Source of the DNA: Alistipes senegalensis
GTDB taxonomy: Bacteria > Bacteroidota > Bacteroidia > Bacteroidales > Rikenellaceae
DNA length: 64,000 nucleotides
Assembly: GCA_023664045.1 (NCBI GenBank)
Contig: JAMPGH010000001.1
Coordinates: forward strand, 56,090 to 120,089
Direction: 5' to 3'
Shown piece by piece: positions 4,003 through 50,303 of this stretch (its first letter is position 1; every line of letters starts with the position of its first letter). The notes under the pieces were generated by a model. The model had not been told where the DNA came from. It made no database searches and saw only the letters and a program-made list of their open reading frames with translations. A program made the position numbers and the translations under genes.

Positions 4003-5376
4003 ATGAAATACGACATACTGGTAGTAGGCAGCGGCCCCGGCGGCTACGTGGCGGCGATCCGCGCGGCCCAGCTGGGCAAGAAAACGGGGCTCGTGGAGCG
4101 GGCCGAGGCGGGCGGCGTATGCCTCAACTGGGGCTGCATACCGACCAAAGCGCTGCTCAAGAGCGCGCAGATATACGCCCACTGCAAGGCGGCGGAACAA
4201 TACGGCGTGGAGATCGCGGGCGACGTACGCCCGGCGCTCGACAAGATGGTGGCCCGCTCGCGCGGAGTGGCCGAGACGATGAACAAAGGGGTGCAGTTCC
4301 TGCTGAAGAAGAACGGCATCGACCTGATCGCCGGATTCGGCCGGCTGGCAGGACCCGGACGTCTGGAGGTGGACGGCACCGTCTACGAAGCCGACCGCAT
4401 CATTCTGGCGACGGGAGCCCGGCCCCGCGAAATGCCCTTCATGCCGGTGGACGGCCGGCGGGTCATCACCTCGCGCGAGGCCCTGACGCTCACGGAGCTG
4501 CCCGAGACGATGATCGTCGTGGGATCGGGAGCCATAGGCAGCGAATTCGCCTGCTTCTATGCGATGCTCGGGGTCAAAGTTACGGTCATCGAATACCTGC
4601 CGCGCATGATGCCCCTCGAAGACGAGGAGGTCTCGAAGACGATGGAGCGCGCGTTCCGCAAACTGCGGGCGACGGTGCTCACGGCGACGACGGTCAAAGG
4701 CGTGAAAGTGGTCGGGGAGCGCTGCGAAGTGGAAATCGAGAGCAAGAAAGGCACGGAGACGCTGACGGCCGACGTGGTGCTCTCGGCCGTGGGCGTGCAA
4801 GCCAACATCGAAGGAATCGGCCTGGAAGAAACGGGCGTCGCGGTGGAACGCGGCAAGGTGAAAGTGGACGAATACTACCGCACCTCGGTGCCGGGCATCT
4901 GCGCCATCGGCGACATCGTGCCGGGTCCGGCGCTGGCCCACGTGGCATCGGCCGAGGCGATCTGCTGCGTGGAGGCCATTTGCGGTCTCGACCCGAAGCC
5001 GGTGGACTATGCGGCCATTCCGTCGTGCATCTTCACGACGCCGGAAGTGGCGTCGGTGGGGCTGACCGAACAACAAGCCGCCGAACGAGGCATTGCCGTG
5101 AAAGTAGGACGCTTTCCTTTCACGGCCTCGGGCAAGGCGACGGCCGCCGGCGACCGAGACGGCTTCGTGAAGCTCCTGTTCGATGAAGAAGAGAAGCTGA
5201 TAGGGGCCCACATGGTGGGTGCCGGCGTTACGGAGATGCTGGCCGAACCGACGCTGGCCCGCACCTTAGGAGCCACGGCCGAAGCGATCGCCCGCACGAT
5301 CCATGCCCACCCGACGATGAACGAGGGCATCATGGAGGCGGCCGAAGCGGCGCTGGGGCATGCCATTCATCTGTAG
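4003..5376 (+). CDS. lpdA: Dihydrolipoyl dehydrogenase (E3)
   Basis: A 457-residue FAD-dependent pyridine nucleotide-disulfide oxidoreductase that reoxidises the dihydrolipoyl group of 2-oxoacid dehydrogenase or glycine-cleavage complexes. The N-terminal FAD motif GSGPGGYVAA is followed by the redox disulfide GGVCLNWGCIPTK (Cys40, Cys45), an NAD-binding GSGAIGSEFA motif, the second FAD motif (AIGDIVPGPALAH) and the C-terminal active-site HAHPTMNE. The open frame runs much further upstream over the dipeptidase gene, but ATG at 4003 (MKYDILVVGSG) gives the standard start. No E1 or E2 genes lie nearby, so it probably serves complexes encoded elsewhere. A strong terminator follows. Confidence 0.95.
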   Translation: MKYDILVVGSGPGGYVAAIRAAQLGKKTGLVERAEAGGVCLNWGCIPTKALLKSAQIYAHCKAAEQYGVEIAGDVRPALDKMVARSRGVAETMNKGVQFLLKKNGIDLIAGFGRLAGPGRLEVDGTVYEADRIILATGARPREMPFMPVDGRRVITSREALTLTELPETMIVVGSGAIGSEFACFYAMLGVKVTVIEYLPRMMPLEDEEVSKTMERAFRKLRATVLTATTVKGVKVVGERCEVEIESKKGTETLTADVVLSAVGVQANIEGIGLEETGVAVERGKVKVDEYYRTSVPGICAIGDIVPGPALAHVASAEAICCVEAICGLDPKPVDYAAIPSCIFTTPEVASVGLTEQQAAERGIAVKVGRFPFTASGKATAAGDRDGFVKLLFDEEEKLIGAHMVGAGVTEMLAEPTLARTLGATAEAIARTIHAHPTMNEGIMEAAEAALGHAIHL

Positions 5377-5398
5377 CGCCGCCGCACGGAACAGAGAG

Positions 5399-5428
5399 AT
5401 CCCCGGTCTTGTCGGACCGGGGATTTTT
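5399..5428 (+). terminator. Terminator after lpdA
   Basis: Stem atccccggtc / gaccggggat with a short loop, followed by five T. It lies 23 bases after the lpdA stop and before the purine-rich array. Confidence 0.85.
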
Positions 5429-5450
5429 CGTGCGATACGGGGCCGGGCGT

Positions 5451-5762
5451 TTTTTTCGAGAGGGTGGAGAGAAAAGGGGCGGGAAGAAACGGGGTTCGAG
5501 AGAGCGGAGAGAAAAAGGGTGGAGAGAAAAAGGAGTGGAAAGGTGGTTTTGCGAGAGAGCGGAGAGGCACGAGTTTCGAGAGAGCAACAAGAAAAGGGAG
5601 TGGAGAAGCGGTTTTGCGAGAGAGCGGAGAGAAAAAGGGTGCAGAGGCGAGGTTCGAGAGGGCGGAGAGAAAAGGGAGTGGAGTGGCGGTTTTTCGAGAG
5701 GGTGGAAAGGCGGTTTTGCGAGAAGGCGGAGAAAAAGGATGACGGATTTCGAGAGGGGTAGC
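5451..5762. repeat. Degenerate purine-rich tandem array
   Basis: Almost entirely A/G on the plus strand. About nine irregular units, each opening with a variant of ggttttgcgagagagcggag, start near 5451, 5491, 5544, 5571, 5608, 5650, 5687, 5711 and 5743 (24-53 bases apart). The bodies are variants of gagaaaaagggtggagag. Both strands have open frames here because the composition avoids stops, but there is no start context or family resemblance, so I do not call a gene. From 5763 to the promoter at 5881 nothing recognisable is seen. Confidence 0.7.
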
Positions 5763-5880
5763 GGGAAATGAAAAACGGTGCCGGAGAGCGAAAAAAGGAA
5801 GAAAAAAGCAGAACGGGCACCCCTGAAAGAGAAGTCGGGATGCAGAGTAATAGGACCTTACGAAAGAAAAGAACCGGATA

Positions 5881-5913
5881 TTTGCAAATTTCGAACCGAA
5901 ATATTTATCTTTG
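5881..5913 (+). promoter_or_regulatory. Promoter of the lipoprotein pair
   Basis: TTTG (5881-5884) and TATCTTTG (5906-5913) with a 21-base spacer match the Bacteroidetes -33/-7 pattern. The start codon at 5964 leaves a leader of about 44 bases. Confidence 0.7.
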
Positions 5914-5963
5914 CGCCCTGATTAGGTTCTTGAAAATTAAGATTATTACAAATCGACCCGACG

Positions 5964-8027
5964 ATGAAGAAAAAATTCACCGCCCCTCTTCTGGCAATGT
6001 TCGGCGCAGCGCTTCTGCTGGCCTCCTGCACCGAAGAGAATCTGAACAACGGGGATGACCGATTCCCCGACGGCCTGCCGATCCGTCTGGCCGTCTCGGA
6101 TTACAACAACCTGAATACCTACTATCTGCTCAACGACGATGAACCGGCCGAGACCTTTTTCGATCCGGGACAACGCAGTTTCTACGTCGATCAGCCGCTG
6201 CAGATGACCCTCGACCAAGATCTCTTCTTCCAGATCCGATTCTACAGTCCCCGGGCCCTGCCCGACGTAACCGTATGGGCCAAAATCGAAGGATACGGCG
6301 AGGAGTTCAAACTGTTCGTATTCGAGAAGATCATGCCCTTCCAGCAGTTCCGCATGCAGCTGCCGTTCCTCACGGAAGACATCATGGCCGTAACGCGCAG
6401 CGGCAAGTCGATCCAAATCATGGCCAATCCGCATCTCTCGCCCGAAGCGCTCACGCTGACGCTGGAGTGCGACGCCCCCTACTACAAAACCCTGCAGTCG
6501 ATCAAGAGCCACTGCCGCATCCGCTTCCAGAACTTCTCTCAGGTCTCCACGGCCACCTACGGGAAATACCCGCTGCGCGTCTATCAGGCCCGCGAGAGCG
6601 CGGCGATCGCCCTGAACATGTTCAGCATGTTCTCCAGCCCGGAATTCGAGGCCGCGCTGAAGGCCTGGGGGCCCCTTTACTCGGACAACAACCAGACCCT
6701 CGTGGACAAGGAGAAGCTGCTCACGCAGGCCCTCGGACACGGCGAACTCAAGTTCGGCAACGTAGGCACCGGAGTCCTCGGTCTGGGCGGGGGGGGGATT
6801 TTCTGCCTCTGCGCCGAGATCTTCTGGTGGCACTACGCCGACGATAAAAGCGATACCGAAACCATCTTCCACGAATACGCCCACTGCATCGGCTACAGCC
6901 ACAGCGGAAACATGACCTACGGCGGCTCGACCGGCTGGACCGCCCTGTGCGACTCGATGTACGTCCGGATGTCGCTGGACAAGAAACTGCCCGTCTACTC
7001 GCGCCGTTTCATGAACACCCGCCGCACGGCGAAGAACCAATACAACCTCGAAAGCAACTACTATCAAACCTCGAAACACGTCATCGAAGACCCCGAACTG
7101 GACGAGATAGACGGCGGACTCGACCGAAGAACGGACTTTCTGGAGACCGACTTCGGCGAGGCGGAAAACGCTCCGGCTCTCTCGTTCAAACTCGACTACG
7201 CCACGGCCGGAGTCGATGCCAAAAACTACATGCCCCGCAGCGTCTCGGTCTACGGAGACAAGATGTATGTGGCCAACGACATCCGTCAGGCCAACTGGAC
7301 GTGGGAGGTCTACGACCTCTCGTCGGGAAAACCCGTGCTCGAAAAGCGATTCACCGAGTGGACGAATCCCGCCAACGGCAATACGATCCAAATCGGCAAG
7401 CCGGACGACATCCTGCGCTCGCGCGACAAGATCTATCTGGCCGGCAGCAACAACTGCCTCTTCGTATTCGACGCCGCAACCTACGAATGCACCGCCATGC
7501 TGAGCCTCGGCGGATTCAACGCCGTAGGCATGGCCGCGACCGACGGCGTTCTGTATGCCTATCGGGGCAACGTCCGCGCTTTCCCCGAACACGATCTCTC
7601 ACACGGATACATGGCCACGAGCGACAACTTCGGAGCCCACTCCGAAAACTCGATGACAGCCGACTATGCGGGCAACGTCTATGCCGTAGACTACCATGCG
7701 AAAAGGATGATCCGGGTAGACTCCAAGTACCTGATGGCATCCAAGCTGGTGGCAGGCGACGAACTGACTTTCGAGGCCAACCCGTTAGGTGCGGCATGGA
7801 GCCCCGACGGACGCCTGTTCGTCTCGTTCGCCAAAACGGAGCAGGCGGGTCCGCGATTCTGCGAAGTCGACCCCAAGACCGGCGCCGTCATCAAGGATTA
7901 CACCGCCATCGGCGACATCGTGCTGCACAATCCGGCCAAATGCCTGATCCGCCGCAACACGCTCTTCGTCATCGACCGCGTGAACGGCCTGTGTCTCTAT
8001 GCCATTCCGCTGAGCCAACTCAACTAA
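5964..8027 (+). CDS. Metzincin-like metalloprotease lipoprotein with C-terminal beta-propeller
   Basis: A 687-residue lipoprotein. MKKKFTAPLLAMFGAALLLASC is a signal peptide ending in a good lipobox (Cys22), so the protein is probably anchored in the outer membrane. Residues 303-313 read HEYAHCIGYSH, the HExxHxxGxxH zinc signature of metzincins, in a region with several aromatic residues (FWWHY). The C-terminal 300 residues contain repeated blade-like segments (SVYGDKMYVANDI, RDKIYLAGSNNCLFVFD, DYAGNVYAVDYHAKRMIRVD), which I read as a beta-propeller. A nine-G run (6789-6797, codons 276-278) precedes the zinc motif, so slippage by one base would remove the protease motif and propeller. It is probably co-transcribed with the next gene (12-base gap). 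Substrate unknown. Confidence 0.8.
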   Translation: MKKKFTAPLLAMFGAALLLASCTEENLNNGDDRFPDGLPIRLAVSDYNNLNTYYLLNDDEPAETFFDPGQRSFYVDQPLQMTLDQDLFFQIRFYSPRALPDVTVWAKIEGYGEEFKLFVFEKIMPFQQFRMQLPFLTEDIMAVTRSGKSIQIMANPHLSPEALTLTLECDAPYYKTLQSIKSHCRIRFQNFSQVSTATYGKYPLRVYQARESAAIALNMFSMFSSPEFEAALKAWGPLYSDNNQTLVDKEKLLTQALGHGELKFGNVGTGVLGLGGGGIFCLCAEIFWWHYADDKSDTETIFHEYAHCIGYSHSGNMTYGGSTGWTALCDSMYVRMSLDKKLPVYSRRFMNTRRTAKNQYNLESNYYQTSKHVIEDPELDEIDGGLDRRTDFLETDFGEAENAPALSFKLDYATAGVDAKNYMPRSVSVYGDKMYVANDIRQANWTWEVYDLSSGKPVLEKRFTEWTNPANGNTIQIGKPDDILRSRDKIYLAGSNNCLFVFDAATYECTAMLSLGGFNAVGMAATDGVLYAYRGNVRAFPEHDLSHGYMATSDNFGAHSENSMTADYAGNVYAVDYHAKRMIRVDSKYLMASKLVAGDELTFEANPLGAAWSPDGRLFVSFAKTEQAGPRFCEVDPKTGAVIKDYTAIGDIVLHNPAKCLIRRNTLFVIDRVNGLCLYAIPLSQLN
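6789..6797 (+). repeat. Nine-G homopolymer within the metzincin-like gene
   Basis: Nine consecutive G encode three of four adjacent glycines (codons 276-278). The frame is intact at this length. Tracts of this size are classical slipped-strand sites; gain or loss of one base would cause early termination upstream of HEYAH. Confidence 0.85.
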
Positions 8028-8039
8028 TCCCACAGAACG

Positions 8040-9212
8040 ATGAAACGTACATTCCTATATATGCTTGCGCTGGCATGCGCCGCGCTGAACGTTCGATGCT
8101 CGGAACAAACGACGGACCCCGCGGACATCGACTACGAAAATGCTCCTTACACGAGCTACTGGTACTACTCCTACGAAGCCGTCGAAGCGATCAACCACGA
8201 AACGATGGGACTGGGGACGACGGCCGAATTCAACCCCTTCACGGTGGCCGACCGCGGCGACACGCTCTTCGTAGCCAATGCCGGCGGCGGATCGAGCCTG
8301 ATCCTCTTTGACAAGAAGAGCAACAAGCCGATCCGGACCATCGCCGCGTGGACGGTCGGAGGTCAGGAAAAGAAATTCGTCTCGCTGATCGAAGCGATGG
8401 CTGCGACCGAAGACCGGCTCTACGTCTCGGAACGCAGCAACATGATCCATGTGTTCGGGCTTCCCGACATGGAGTACATCACCTGCATCGGCACGGGCAA
8501 CTACAATGCTGCGGCATCGCCCGTATGCAACGCCCAGGCTCTGGCCGTAAAGGACGGACTGATCTTCGCCCGCGACAAAACCGGTACCGTCAGCATCTAC
8601 AAGGAAGCGGACGCAACGCCGGAGAACTACCAGAAAGTCAAACGCTACAAACAGACCGGCGCCGGCGCAGACGGTCTGGCGAACAGGGATTTCGCGGCCC
8701 ACTACATGGAAGTCGACGAGGAGGGCCGCATCCTGCTGACGGCCTACGAAGCGCAGGCGATCCGCCTGCTCGACCCCTCGCGAATCGGCGACGACTTCAC
8801 CGACGGCACCGACATCGACATCGCCGACCGGACGTGGGCTCTGCCCTTCAAACCCAAGACCTTCGCGAAGAACACCGACCGTCTCTACGCCACGGGCAGC
8901 AACGACGCCGTCAACGTCTACGACTACGGCAGCAAAGAGTGGGTCAAGACCCTCAAGGCGATCAAAGGTTTCACTTTTACGAATCCCGCCCGCATCTACC
9001 GCGAGAACGACGAGACGTTCTGGGTCTCGGACATCAGCAAGCGCACGCTGGTGAAGATGGGCGTATTCCGGGGCGAAATCCGCGAATACGAAGCGGTGAA
9101 CCGGAACGTCGTCAAGGTACGGTCGGCGCAGACGCGCAGCGGCGAGGAGTGCGGCGGATTCTACGTCGATCTCCGGACGCACGAGATCGTGGAGGAGGCG
9201 GAGATCGAATAA
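8040..9212 (+). CDS. Beta-propeller lipoprotein-like protein
   Basis: A 390-residue protein whose body is made of repeated blade-like motifs (RGDTLFVANAGGGSSLILFD, EDRLYVSERSNMIHVFGL, TDRLYATGSNDAVNVYD, NDETFWVSDISKRTLVKMG), similar in style to the C-terminal half of the upstream lipoprotein but without a zinc motif. The N-terminus (MKRTFLYMLALACAALNVRC) looks like a lipoprotein signal with Cys20, though Arg at -1 is an unusual lipobox. It starts 12 bases after the metzincin-like gene and ends at a terminator, so the two form an operon and may act as surface partners. Function unknown. Confidence 0.72.
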   Translation: MKRTFLYMLALACAALNVRCSEQTTDPADIDYENAPYTSYWYYSYEAVEAINHETMGLGTTAEFNPFTVADRGDTLFVANAGGGSSLILFDKKSNKPIRTIAAWTVGGQEKKFVSLIEAMAATEDRLYVSERSNMIHVFGLPDMEYITCIGTGNYNAAASPVCNAQALAVKDGLIFARDKTGTVSIYKEADATPENYQKVKRYKQTGAGADGLANRDFAAHYMEVDEEGRILLTAYEAQAIRLLDPSRIGDDFTDGTDIDIADRTWALPFKPKTFAKNTDRLYATGSNDAVNVYDYGSKEWVKTLKAIKGFTFTNPARIYRENDETFWVSDISKRTLVKMGVFRGEIREYEAVNRNVVKVRSAQTRSGEECGGFYVDLRTHEIVEEAEIE

Positions 9213-12559: not shown

Positions 12560-13339
12560 GTGGCCGAAGACAGCTACCGGACGATCGAAGCGCCGGCCGA
12601 AGCAGCCTCGCGCGAACGCAGCAGCAAGTTCCTCGCCTACATCTACCCGGTGCAGAACGAGGAGCAGATACGCACGCACCTCGACGCCCTGCGCAAACGC
12701 TACTTCGACGCCACGCACCACTGCTATGCGTGGCGCTTGGGGCCGCGAGGCGAACGCTTCCGCGCCAACGACGACGGCGAACCCTCGGGTACGGCGGGCA
12801 AGCCGATACTGGGGCAGCTGCTGTCGAACGGCCTGACGGAGTGTCTGGTCGTCGTGGTCCGCTACTTCGGGGGCACGAAGTTGGGCGTGCCGGGGCTGAT
12901 CGCCGCCTACCGCGAAGCGGCGGCCGAGGCGATCGCCGCAGCCACGGTGGTCGAACGCACGGTGGACCGGCGGATCACGGTGGATTTCCCCTATGAGGCG
13001 ATGAACGGCATCATGCGGGCGGTCAAGGAGTGTCAGCCCGAGATTCGGGCCCAGCGCTTCGACAACCTCTGCACGCTGGAGCTGGCGATCCGCGAAAGCC
13101 GCGCGGACGAACTGGAAGAGCGGCTGCGAAAAGCCGGAGGCAGCGTCGCGGACGAACTGGAAGAGCGGCTGCGAAAAGCCGGAGGCAGCGTCGCGGACGA
13201 ACTGGAAGAGCGGCTGCGAAAAGCCGGAGGCAGCGTTGCGGACGAACTGGAAGAGCGGCTGCGAAAGGCCGGAGGCAGCGTTGCGGACGAACTGGAAGAG
13301 CGGCTGCGAAAAGCCGGAGGCAGCGTCGCCGACGAATGA
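12560..13339 (+). CDS. YigZ/IMPACT-family protein with a C-terminal 5 x 15-residue repeat tail
   Basis: 259 residues from a GTG start four bases after the lepB stop. The first roughly 180 residues are the YigZ/IMPACT family (SKFLAYIYPVQNEEQI, DDGEPSGTAGKPIL, VVRYFGGTKLGVPGLI), whose molecular role in bacteria is poorly known. From about residue 182 the protein becomes five nearly identical copies of ADELEERLRKAGGSV. They are charged and could form helix, perhaps a coiled coil broken by Gly-Gly. Family members are usually about 200-210 residues, so the tail is an extra. The repeats differ by only a few silent changes in DNA, which points to recent expansion. Confidence 0.85.
   Translation: MAEDSYRTIEAPAEAASRERSSKFLAYIYPVQNEEQIRTHLDALRKRYFDATHHCYAWRLGPRGERFRANDDGEPSGTAGKPILGQLLSNGLTECLVVVVRYFGGTKLGVPGLIAAYREAAAEAIAAATVVERTVDRRITVDFPYEAMNGIMRAVKECQPEIRAQRFDNLCTLELAIRESRADELEERLRKAGGSVADELEERLRKAGGSVADELEERLRKAGGSVADELEERLRKAGGSVADELEERLRKAGGSVADE
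13103..13338 (+). repeat. 45-base in-frame tandem array at the end of yigZ
   Basis: Five full units of exactly 45 bases start at 13103, 13148, 13193, 13238 and 13283, with a partial sixth (gccgacgaa) running into the stop. Units differ at only a few third positions (gtc or gtt at the end; aaaagcc or aaaggcc in the fourth). Because 45 is a multiple of three, copy-number changes keep the frame. Confidence 0.95.
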
Positions 13340-21636: not shown

Positions 21637-21884
21637 AAACATAATATTTTTCGTCGGAGAACAAAAATCCCCCTCGCAAGGGGATAGGAGCGGGGCTGGA
21701 CCGAGCGCGCACAAGGGAGAAACGGGCAGGCGGGCAGGGCAAAGCGAGCGAACAGAGGTCGAAGCGATAGAAAAGGAGCGGGGGGGGGTAAGGGAAAGAA
21801 AGCAGGTCAGATGAAAAGAAGGGAGTAAAGCAAGAGCCGGAGAGGGGCAGGAAAATAGCGGACCGGACCGACGATCGGGCCGAA
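21637..21884. other. Purine-rich gap with a nine-G run
   Basis: No gene is supported. The plus strand is strongly A/G-rich from about 21700. A run of nine G occupies 21780-21788. The short palindromic segment ccccctcgcaagggg lies near 21670. No tandem period is clear, unlike the other purine-rich arrays in the window. Confidence 0.6.
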
Positions 21885-26507: not shown

Positions 26508-26533
26508 AAGGGGCCCGAGCGAGGGGGGGGGCT

Positions 26534-26738
26534 GAGACGAGACCCATGCGAGGGACCGAGAGCAGGGGGAGCATGAGACGGACCCATGCGAAGGACCGAA
26601 AGCAGGGGGAGCATGAGACGAGACCCATGCGAAGAACCGAGAGCAAGGGGAGCATGAGACGAGACCCATGCGAAGAACCGAGAGCAAGGGGAGCATGAGA
26701 CGGACCCATGCAAAGAACCGAGAGCAGGGGGGGGGCAT
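26534..26738. repeat. 41-base tandem array after dnaA, flanked by nine-G runs
   Basis: Five units, starting near 26534, 26575, 26615, 26656 and 26697, are 40-42 bases long and close variants of gagacgagacccatgcgaag plus aaccgagagcaaggggagcat. The period is not a multiple of three. Nine-G runs at 26523-26531 and 26727-26735 mark both ends. Open frames through the array on both strands arise from the repetition. The gap from dnaA to the WYL gene (26508-26855) holds nothing else that I recognise. Confidence 0.85.
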
Positions 26739-50294: not shown

Positions 50295-50303
50295 GGGGGG
50301 GGG
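50295..50303 (+). repeat. Nine-G run at the YozG ribosome-binding position
   Basis: Nine G two bases before the ATG of the XRE regulator, in the place of a ribosome-binding site. A change in length would alter the spacing and G-rich complementarity at the start. Confidence 0.8.

Follow-up and report, generated by a model that had tools for sequence, protein, structure and literature searches.

The window analyzed here is a 64,000-nucleotide stretch of the Alistipes senegalensis genome, and it includes a gene for a predicted lipoprotein with an in-phase run of nine G residues (G9) in its coding region (Table 1). The gene is preceded by a promoter-like site that lacks a G tract of its own; sites of this type (TTTG-N21-TATCTTTG) occur five times in the window, where 0.49 are expected. 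It is followed closely by a second gene with which it is probably co-transcribed, and whose lipoprotein-like product matches no Pfam family above its cut-off. We considered an invertible promoter for the metzincin gene and rejected it: a search of positions 5300–6100 for inverted repeats with arms of at least 12 nt yields two, neither of which flanks the promoter-like site. Purine-rich degenerate repeats are present at 5380–5760, 3′ of a gene that we take to encode a dihydrolipoamide-dehydrogenase-like protein, and elsewhere in the window the C-terminal end of the ORF at 12560–13339 consists of five in-frame repeats with ADELEERLRKAGGSV.

Table 1. Features of the window that bear on the G9 tract of the predicted metzincin gene.
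Feature	Position	Strand	Basis
Bacteroidales-type promoter-like site, TTTG-N21-TATCTTTG	5881..5913	+	50 nt upstream of ATG
687-aa lipoprotein: lipobox LLASC, metzincin-like domain, putatively beta-propeller-like C-terminal part	5964..8027	+	ORF, alignment, profile match
G9 tract, codons 276–278 (GGG GGG GGG)	6789..6797	+	sequence read, glycines 276–278
HExxHxxGxxH zinc-binding motif HEYAHCIGYSH	6870..6902	+	translation
Next gene, 390-aa lipoprotein-like protein	8040..9212	+	ORF; 12 nt gap after metzincin gene
Further G9 of the class, intergenic	21780..21788	+	run search
Further G9, 15 nt past stop of presumed DnaA-like gene	26523..26531	+	run search
Further G9, intergenic	26727..26735	+	run search
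Further G9, intergenic, 2 nt 5′ of the ATG of a small helix-turn-helix-like ORF	50295..50303	+	run search

The lipoprotein is a predicted metzincin metallopeptidase, an assignment supported at the level of sequence and in agreement with the metzincin-like identity proposed in an earlier note on this DNA. A profile of 17 relatives matches the solved PDB chain 9tpb, named a metallopeptidase/metzincin by its depositors, with an E value of 1.6e-31 over 307 positions, and the alignment takes in both GLGGG and HExxHxxGxxH; residues H303, E304, H307, G310, and H313 of the zinc motif are invariant in 17 of 17 aligned relatives. Pfam matches are much fainter: Peptidase_M10 is found at E values up to 0.1 in nine of the 17 family members (best 0.0043), the window protein not being among them, and DUF5074 matches the window protein below its family cut-off (E = 0.019). 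The GLGGG and HExxHxxGxxH region is common to the window protein and the 9tpb/9tpc metzincin, whereas the window protein has a long additional C-terminal part, which the earlier note read as a beta-propeller and which may indeed be propeller-like.

The tract is bordered by a C on its 5′ side and an A on its 3′ side and is in phase with the ORF, filling its three codons completely. The zinc motif begins at codon 303 (position 6870), 25 codons past the tract, such that the order given previously, nine G ahead of HEYAHCIGYSH, is correct. It had also been claimed that loss of frame would cut the product short of the zinc site and propeller, and this too is confirmed: past the tract the two alternative frames reach stops after 38 or 16 codons, these stops precede the zinc motif coding, and a gain or loss of one unit thus alters the product so that neither the zinc site nor the propeller would be made. 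Glycines 276 and 277, both encoded by the tract, are invariant in the 17 aligned proteins, and because the tract occupies codons of a conserved glycine loop, synonymous change could create it here. GGG accounts for 9.8% of the glycine codons in 30 window genes, and three successive GGG codons would therefore arise through codon choice alone with a probability of about 0.001.

Runs of this length are also in excess in the window as a whole. G runs of 5, 6, 7, 8, and 9 number 14, 1, 0, 0, and 5, and all five runs of at least seven (beginning at 6789, 21780, 26523, 26727, and 50295) are exactly nine long, against a first-order Markov expectation of 0.13 runs of nine. A dinucleotide shuffle of G seven-mers (15 observed, 7.4 expected, with 6 of 100 shuffles reaching 15) is a weaker test because run length is not used. 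The gene 5′ of the tract at 26523 is presumably DnaA-like.

Relatives of the metzincin protein are present in 28 of 151 genus genomes, the source genome included; a related-locus scan of genome contigs with the lipoprotein recovered no relative. Conservation of the tract at codon 276 was rejected, as relatives have the same glycines in mixed codons without a run. Seven close orthologs, with 58–76% identity, all have a G9 near the gene start, within the signal peptide in six (L071, L072, L073, L074, L075, and L077) and just past the lipobox in L070; with G9 near the start in these orthologs and at codon 276 here, the gene keeps its G9 while the position moves. Retention is thus 8 of 8 close-clade copies at the level of the gene and zero among the relatives found at codon 276. 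The loci L069–L075 and L077 each have exactly one G/C run of at least eight, always a G9 and always within the gene, and the other 21 metzincin loci have no such run (120,143 bases searched), the 20 more distant relatives (L076 and L078–L096) being tract-free. All eight close-clade copies have their G9 in frame with an ATG and are in the on frame, with no length difference among them. In a tree that leaves out L073 and L077, the window protein and L070 pair as sisters (99/100) and adjoin L071 and L072 (87/87), with L074 and L075 outside these four, placing the window protein inside the group with signal-peptide tracts. The simplest history would be an ancestral signal-peptide tract that was lost in the line leading to the window gene and L070 and regained elsewhere in each. 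This inferred relocation is the strongest sign that selection to carry a switch acts on the gene and not on the site.

Tracts of nine are a genome- and genus-wide class. The source genome (G000; 1.97 Mb, five contigs) has 8 G7, 23 G8, 62 G9, and 1 G10 runs, and every one of the 61 presumed Alistipes genomes searched contains G9, the number of starts per genome ranging from 1 to 153; the first 27 tracts listed for the one-contig genome G128 comprise 21 G9, five G8, and one G10. Within 327,496 bases of relatives' loci, which were retrieved on the basis of their proteins irrespective of any tract (two of the three genes used for retrieval being tract genes themselves), G/C runs of 5, 6, 7, 8, 9, and 10 number 293, 21, 1, 4, 44, and 3. 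Across the order a run of at least nine is found in 130 of 159 genomes, and longer runs are frequent among the places listed. Loss of mismatch repair is not supported as the cause, as mutS1 is present in G000, and mutS scores above its family cut-off in 57 of the 61 genus genomes. Our guess is that biased slippage holds the length at nine.

We examined 61 of the 62 G9, 18 of the 23 G8, and three of the eight G7 runs of G000, excluding one G9 and one G8 at C1:365,769–366,096 whose flanks are identical to those of a neighbor. Nineteen of the 61 G9 lie inside ORFs (18 by scoring, together with L025), and G is on the sense strand in 14 of the 18 scored. The coding tracts include those in five genes with TonB-receptor Plug and CarbopepD domains (L016, L025, L034, L048, and L053) and in two hybrid or histidine-kinase sensors (L010 and L056), as well as in genes for an AraC-type regulator, a sulfatase-domain protein, a DUF3575 protein, a glycosyltransferase, and an endonuclease, in an FtsA tail, and in proteins with no Pfam assignment (L008, L012, and L018). 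The other 42, about two thirds, are outside any ORF and mostly without an evident switching role, indicating that tracts also arise without being used. Where such a tract has a neighbor on its 5′ side it usually lies 3′ of a co-oriented gene (34 of 40, a count that excludes L025, which is in fact inside a SusC ORF), and 15 of these 34 fall no more than 25 nt from the stop. Fifteen intergenic G9 of G000 are located 2–23 nt past a same-strand stop codon, often in purine-rich DNA, and a role at the mRNA 3′ end is possible. At L013 (C1:365,769–366,096) there are near-tandem units of ~80 nt, each with one G tract of 8 or 9, and the tracts of this genome also show an apparent strand bias by replichore.

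Orthologs of two of the tract genes were compared, using the best 30 matching loci for each and not all matches. For the SusC gene L016, 18 of the 30 have a run of 8–10 where the signal peptide ends, and 12 have no G9 either at the start or 5′ of it. In 14 of the 18 tract-bearing orthologs the signal peptide shares the frame of the body, and in four it is out of frame: L326 has a G10, L329 a G8, and L327 and L330 a G9 with a neighboring base missing. The bodies of all four stay open for 971–994 codons, although each case is from a single assembly and could be an assembly error. A sixth SusC gene in G000 (L062) has a G8 and is split across two frames, its pieces matching positions 2–303 and 298–861 of the TIGR04056 model. 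For the DUF3575 gene L055 a G9 is present in eight of the best 30 loci, in the signal peptide in two, 79–165 nt 5′ of the estimated start in five, and early in the coding region in one; the remaining 22 have no G9 either at the start or 5′ of it.

A second setting for the tracts is the spacer of promoters. Among 180 genus genomes, 73 together have 120 sites that match the pattern TTTG-N(0–10)-G8-N(2–12)-TAnnTTTG, with a single match to the reversed control pattern; 107 of the 180 have no such site. Outside the genus, in 197 genomes of the order, the same pattern has one site and its reverse three. A narrower pattern was searched in the contigs of 84,980 species and matches at least 80 loci; the 80 listed comprise 29 from Alistipes, 10 from Rikenellaceae, 14 from other Bacteroidales, and 27 from others. 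The 120 spacers are 18, 19, 20, and 21 nt long in 65, 12, 7, and 16 sites, 100 of them thus falling at 18–21 nt, and their G tracts have lengths of 8, 9, 10, 11, and 12 in 11, 89, 15, 4, and 1. Tract-free promoter-like pairs (495,358 bases) peak at 19 nt (18 pairs) and 20 nt (29 pairs), with seven pairs at 18 nt. Several promoters are alike except for the number of G, among them a set from four species with 9, 10, 11, and 11 in G154, G012, G115, and G060, respectively.

Among 30 spacer-tract sites (29 loci), 24 lead within 130 nt to an ATG-initiated ORF of at least 80 residues, L101 having been left out as a repeat of L028. A signal-like start is present in 24 of these 24 ORFs, some of which are mutual orthologs, compared with 10 of 30 window genes. 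For 20 of the ORFs domains were determined: four have OMP_b-brl_3 plus CarbopepD, three OMP_b-brl (two below cut-off), five other families, and eight none. G000 itself has two promoters with a G9 spacer, both on the minus strand (L028, C1:796414–796443, and L043, C1:1348065–1348094). They lead into similar short stretches that have GAGCTGGGATGATGACGCAACTC in common, with a hairpin followed by T residues and no evident ORF; neither stretch has an Rfam or tRNA match, and each could possibly specify a small RNA under switch control. Two to three copies of promoters of this kind are present in some relatives.

Slipped-strand phase variation, as part of a contingency system extending through the genus, is in our judgment the best explanation of these observations and probably the correct one. 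The G9 at 6789–6797 would be a simple-sequence contingency element of the metzincin lipoprotein gene: a slip within the nine Gs would turn the metzincin off by shifting its frame, and a further slip would restore the frame and turn it on again, with tract lengths changing within populations and expression switching as a result. The dozens of G9 in each Alistipes genome would make up the contingency system, with the coding tracts acting mostly in genes that specify surface receptors or sensors or are related to glycans, and the promoter switches separating the −33 and −7 elements ahead of genes whose products are exported. The metzincin switch would be old and its place would not, being in the signal peptide in relatives, past the lipobox in the sister species, and 25 codons before the zinc site here. 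The on/off control by slippage that the earlier note proposed is therefore upheld in part: recurrence in orthologs, the out-of-frame SusC genes, and the spacer tracts speak for it, and the eight metzincin copies, all G9 and all in frame, speak against it. More tentatively, and with slightly more doubt than confidence, we suggest an Alistipes phasome built on G9 of set length, in which either the reading frame or the promoter spacing switches dozens of surface and exported proteins per genome, nine is maintained by biased slippage, genes retain a switch whose place changes, and promoter tracts usually give a spacer of 18 nt, one base off the usual 19–20 nt of tract-free promoters, so that a single slip would raise expression.

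The tracts could instead reflect mutation alone, if copying of the DNA in this genus pushes G runs to a length of nine, with the metzincin tract as a by-product on glycine codons. That most examined G9 are outside ORFs (42 of 61) and 3′ of co-oriented genes (34 of 40 with neighbors) would be expected under such a process, as would the same length peak within and outside genes and the location of the window tract on family-conserved glycines, where only synonymous changes are needed. It fails, however, to explain a G9 in all eight close-clade copies at three kinds of position with no other run of at least eight in the loci compared, or the placement of tracts in promoter spacers, and we consider it unlikely. 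Still less probable is an action at the level of RNA, with polymerase or ribosome slipping on the G run to give mixed products in each cell from unchanged DNA. Transcription slippage at homopolymers is a published subject (PMC5574713), and the predominance of sense-strand G in coding tracts (14 of 18) fits with it, but neither the promoter-spacer tracts nor the SusC orthologs that are out of frame in the DNA can be accounted for in this way. Least probable of all, and very improbable, is that homopolymers were mis-sized in sequencing or assembly and have other true lengths. The sharp cut-off at nine is odd, and some tracts of G013 are at or near contig ends; however, assemblies ranging from a single contig, as for G128, to hundreds show the peak at nine, the same search gives longer runs in other genera of the order, and coding nine-G tracts preserve their reading frames.

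The preferred reading, slipped-strand switching, has parallels in the contingency loci of Campylobacter, Neisseria, and Helicobacter, which likewise have G runs of about 8–11 in or upstream of surface genes, where a change of one base switches the frame or the promoter. The Alistipes tracts differ in their Bacteroidales host, probably in a length peak at nine with few tens, in the many tracts outside genes, in their placement in the −33/−7 spacer particular to Bacteroidota promoters, and in turnover of the tract position within one gene. At Neisseria fetA and porA, as at H. pylori sabA, expression depends on the length of a homopolymer within or beside the promoter. For H. pylori this is described in PMC4081817, and PMC8355987 describes phase variation in Campylobacter through both intergenic and intragenic G/C tracts. 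Relative to sabA, fetA, and porA, the G9 here is between TTTG and TAnnTTTG, and is found at many genes and in 73 of 180 genomes. Within the order to which Alistipes belongs, the Bacteroides surface receptors and capsules are described (PMC11868660 and PMC12632263) as phase-varying by invertible promoters, with invertase switching of SusC/SusD. Both cases concern phase-variable surface structures in one order, whereas the changing element here is a homopolymer, and neither inverted repeat at 5300–6100 flanks the metzincin promoter-like site. We found no report of homopolymer switching in Alistipes or Bacteroidales among open-access papers searched by title and start of abstract.

If this reading is correct, a common gut genus would vary its surface by slipped-strand switching and not by the DNA inversions known from its order alone. 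Resistance to phages, the use of glycans, and recognition by the immune system would all be touched by this, and consensus genomes would conceal whether many surface genes are on or off. Two questions would also become testable: what keeps a homopolymer at one length with mutS present, and how a gene retains its switch while the position of the switch shifts.
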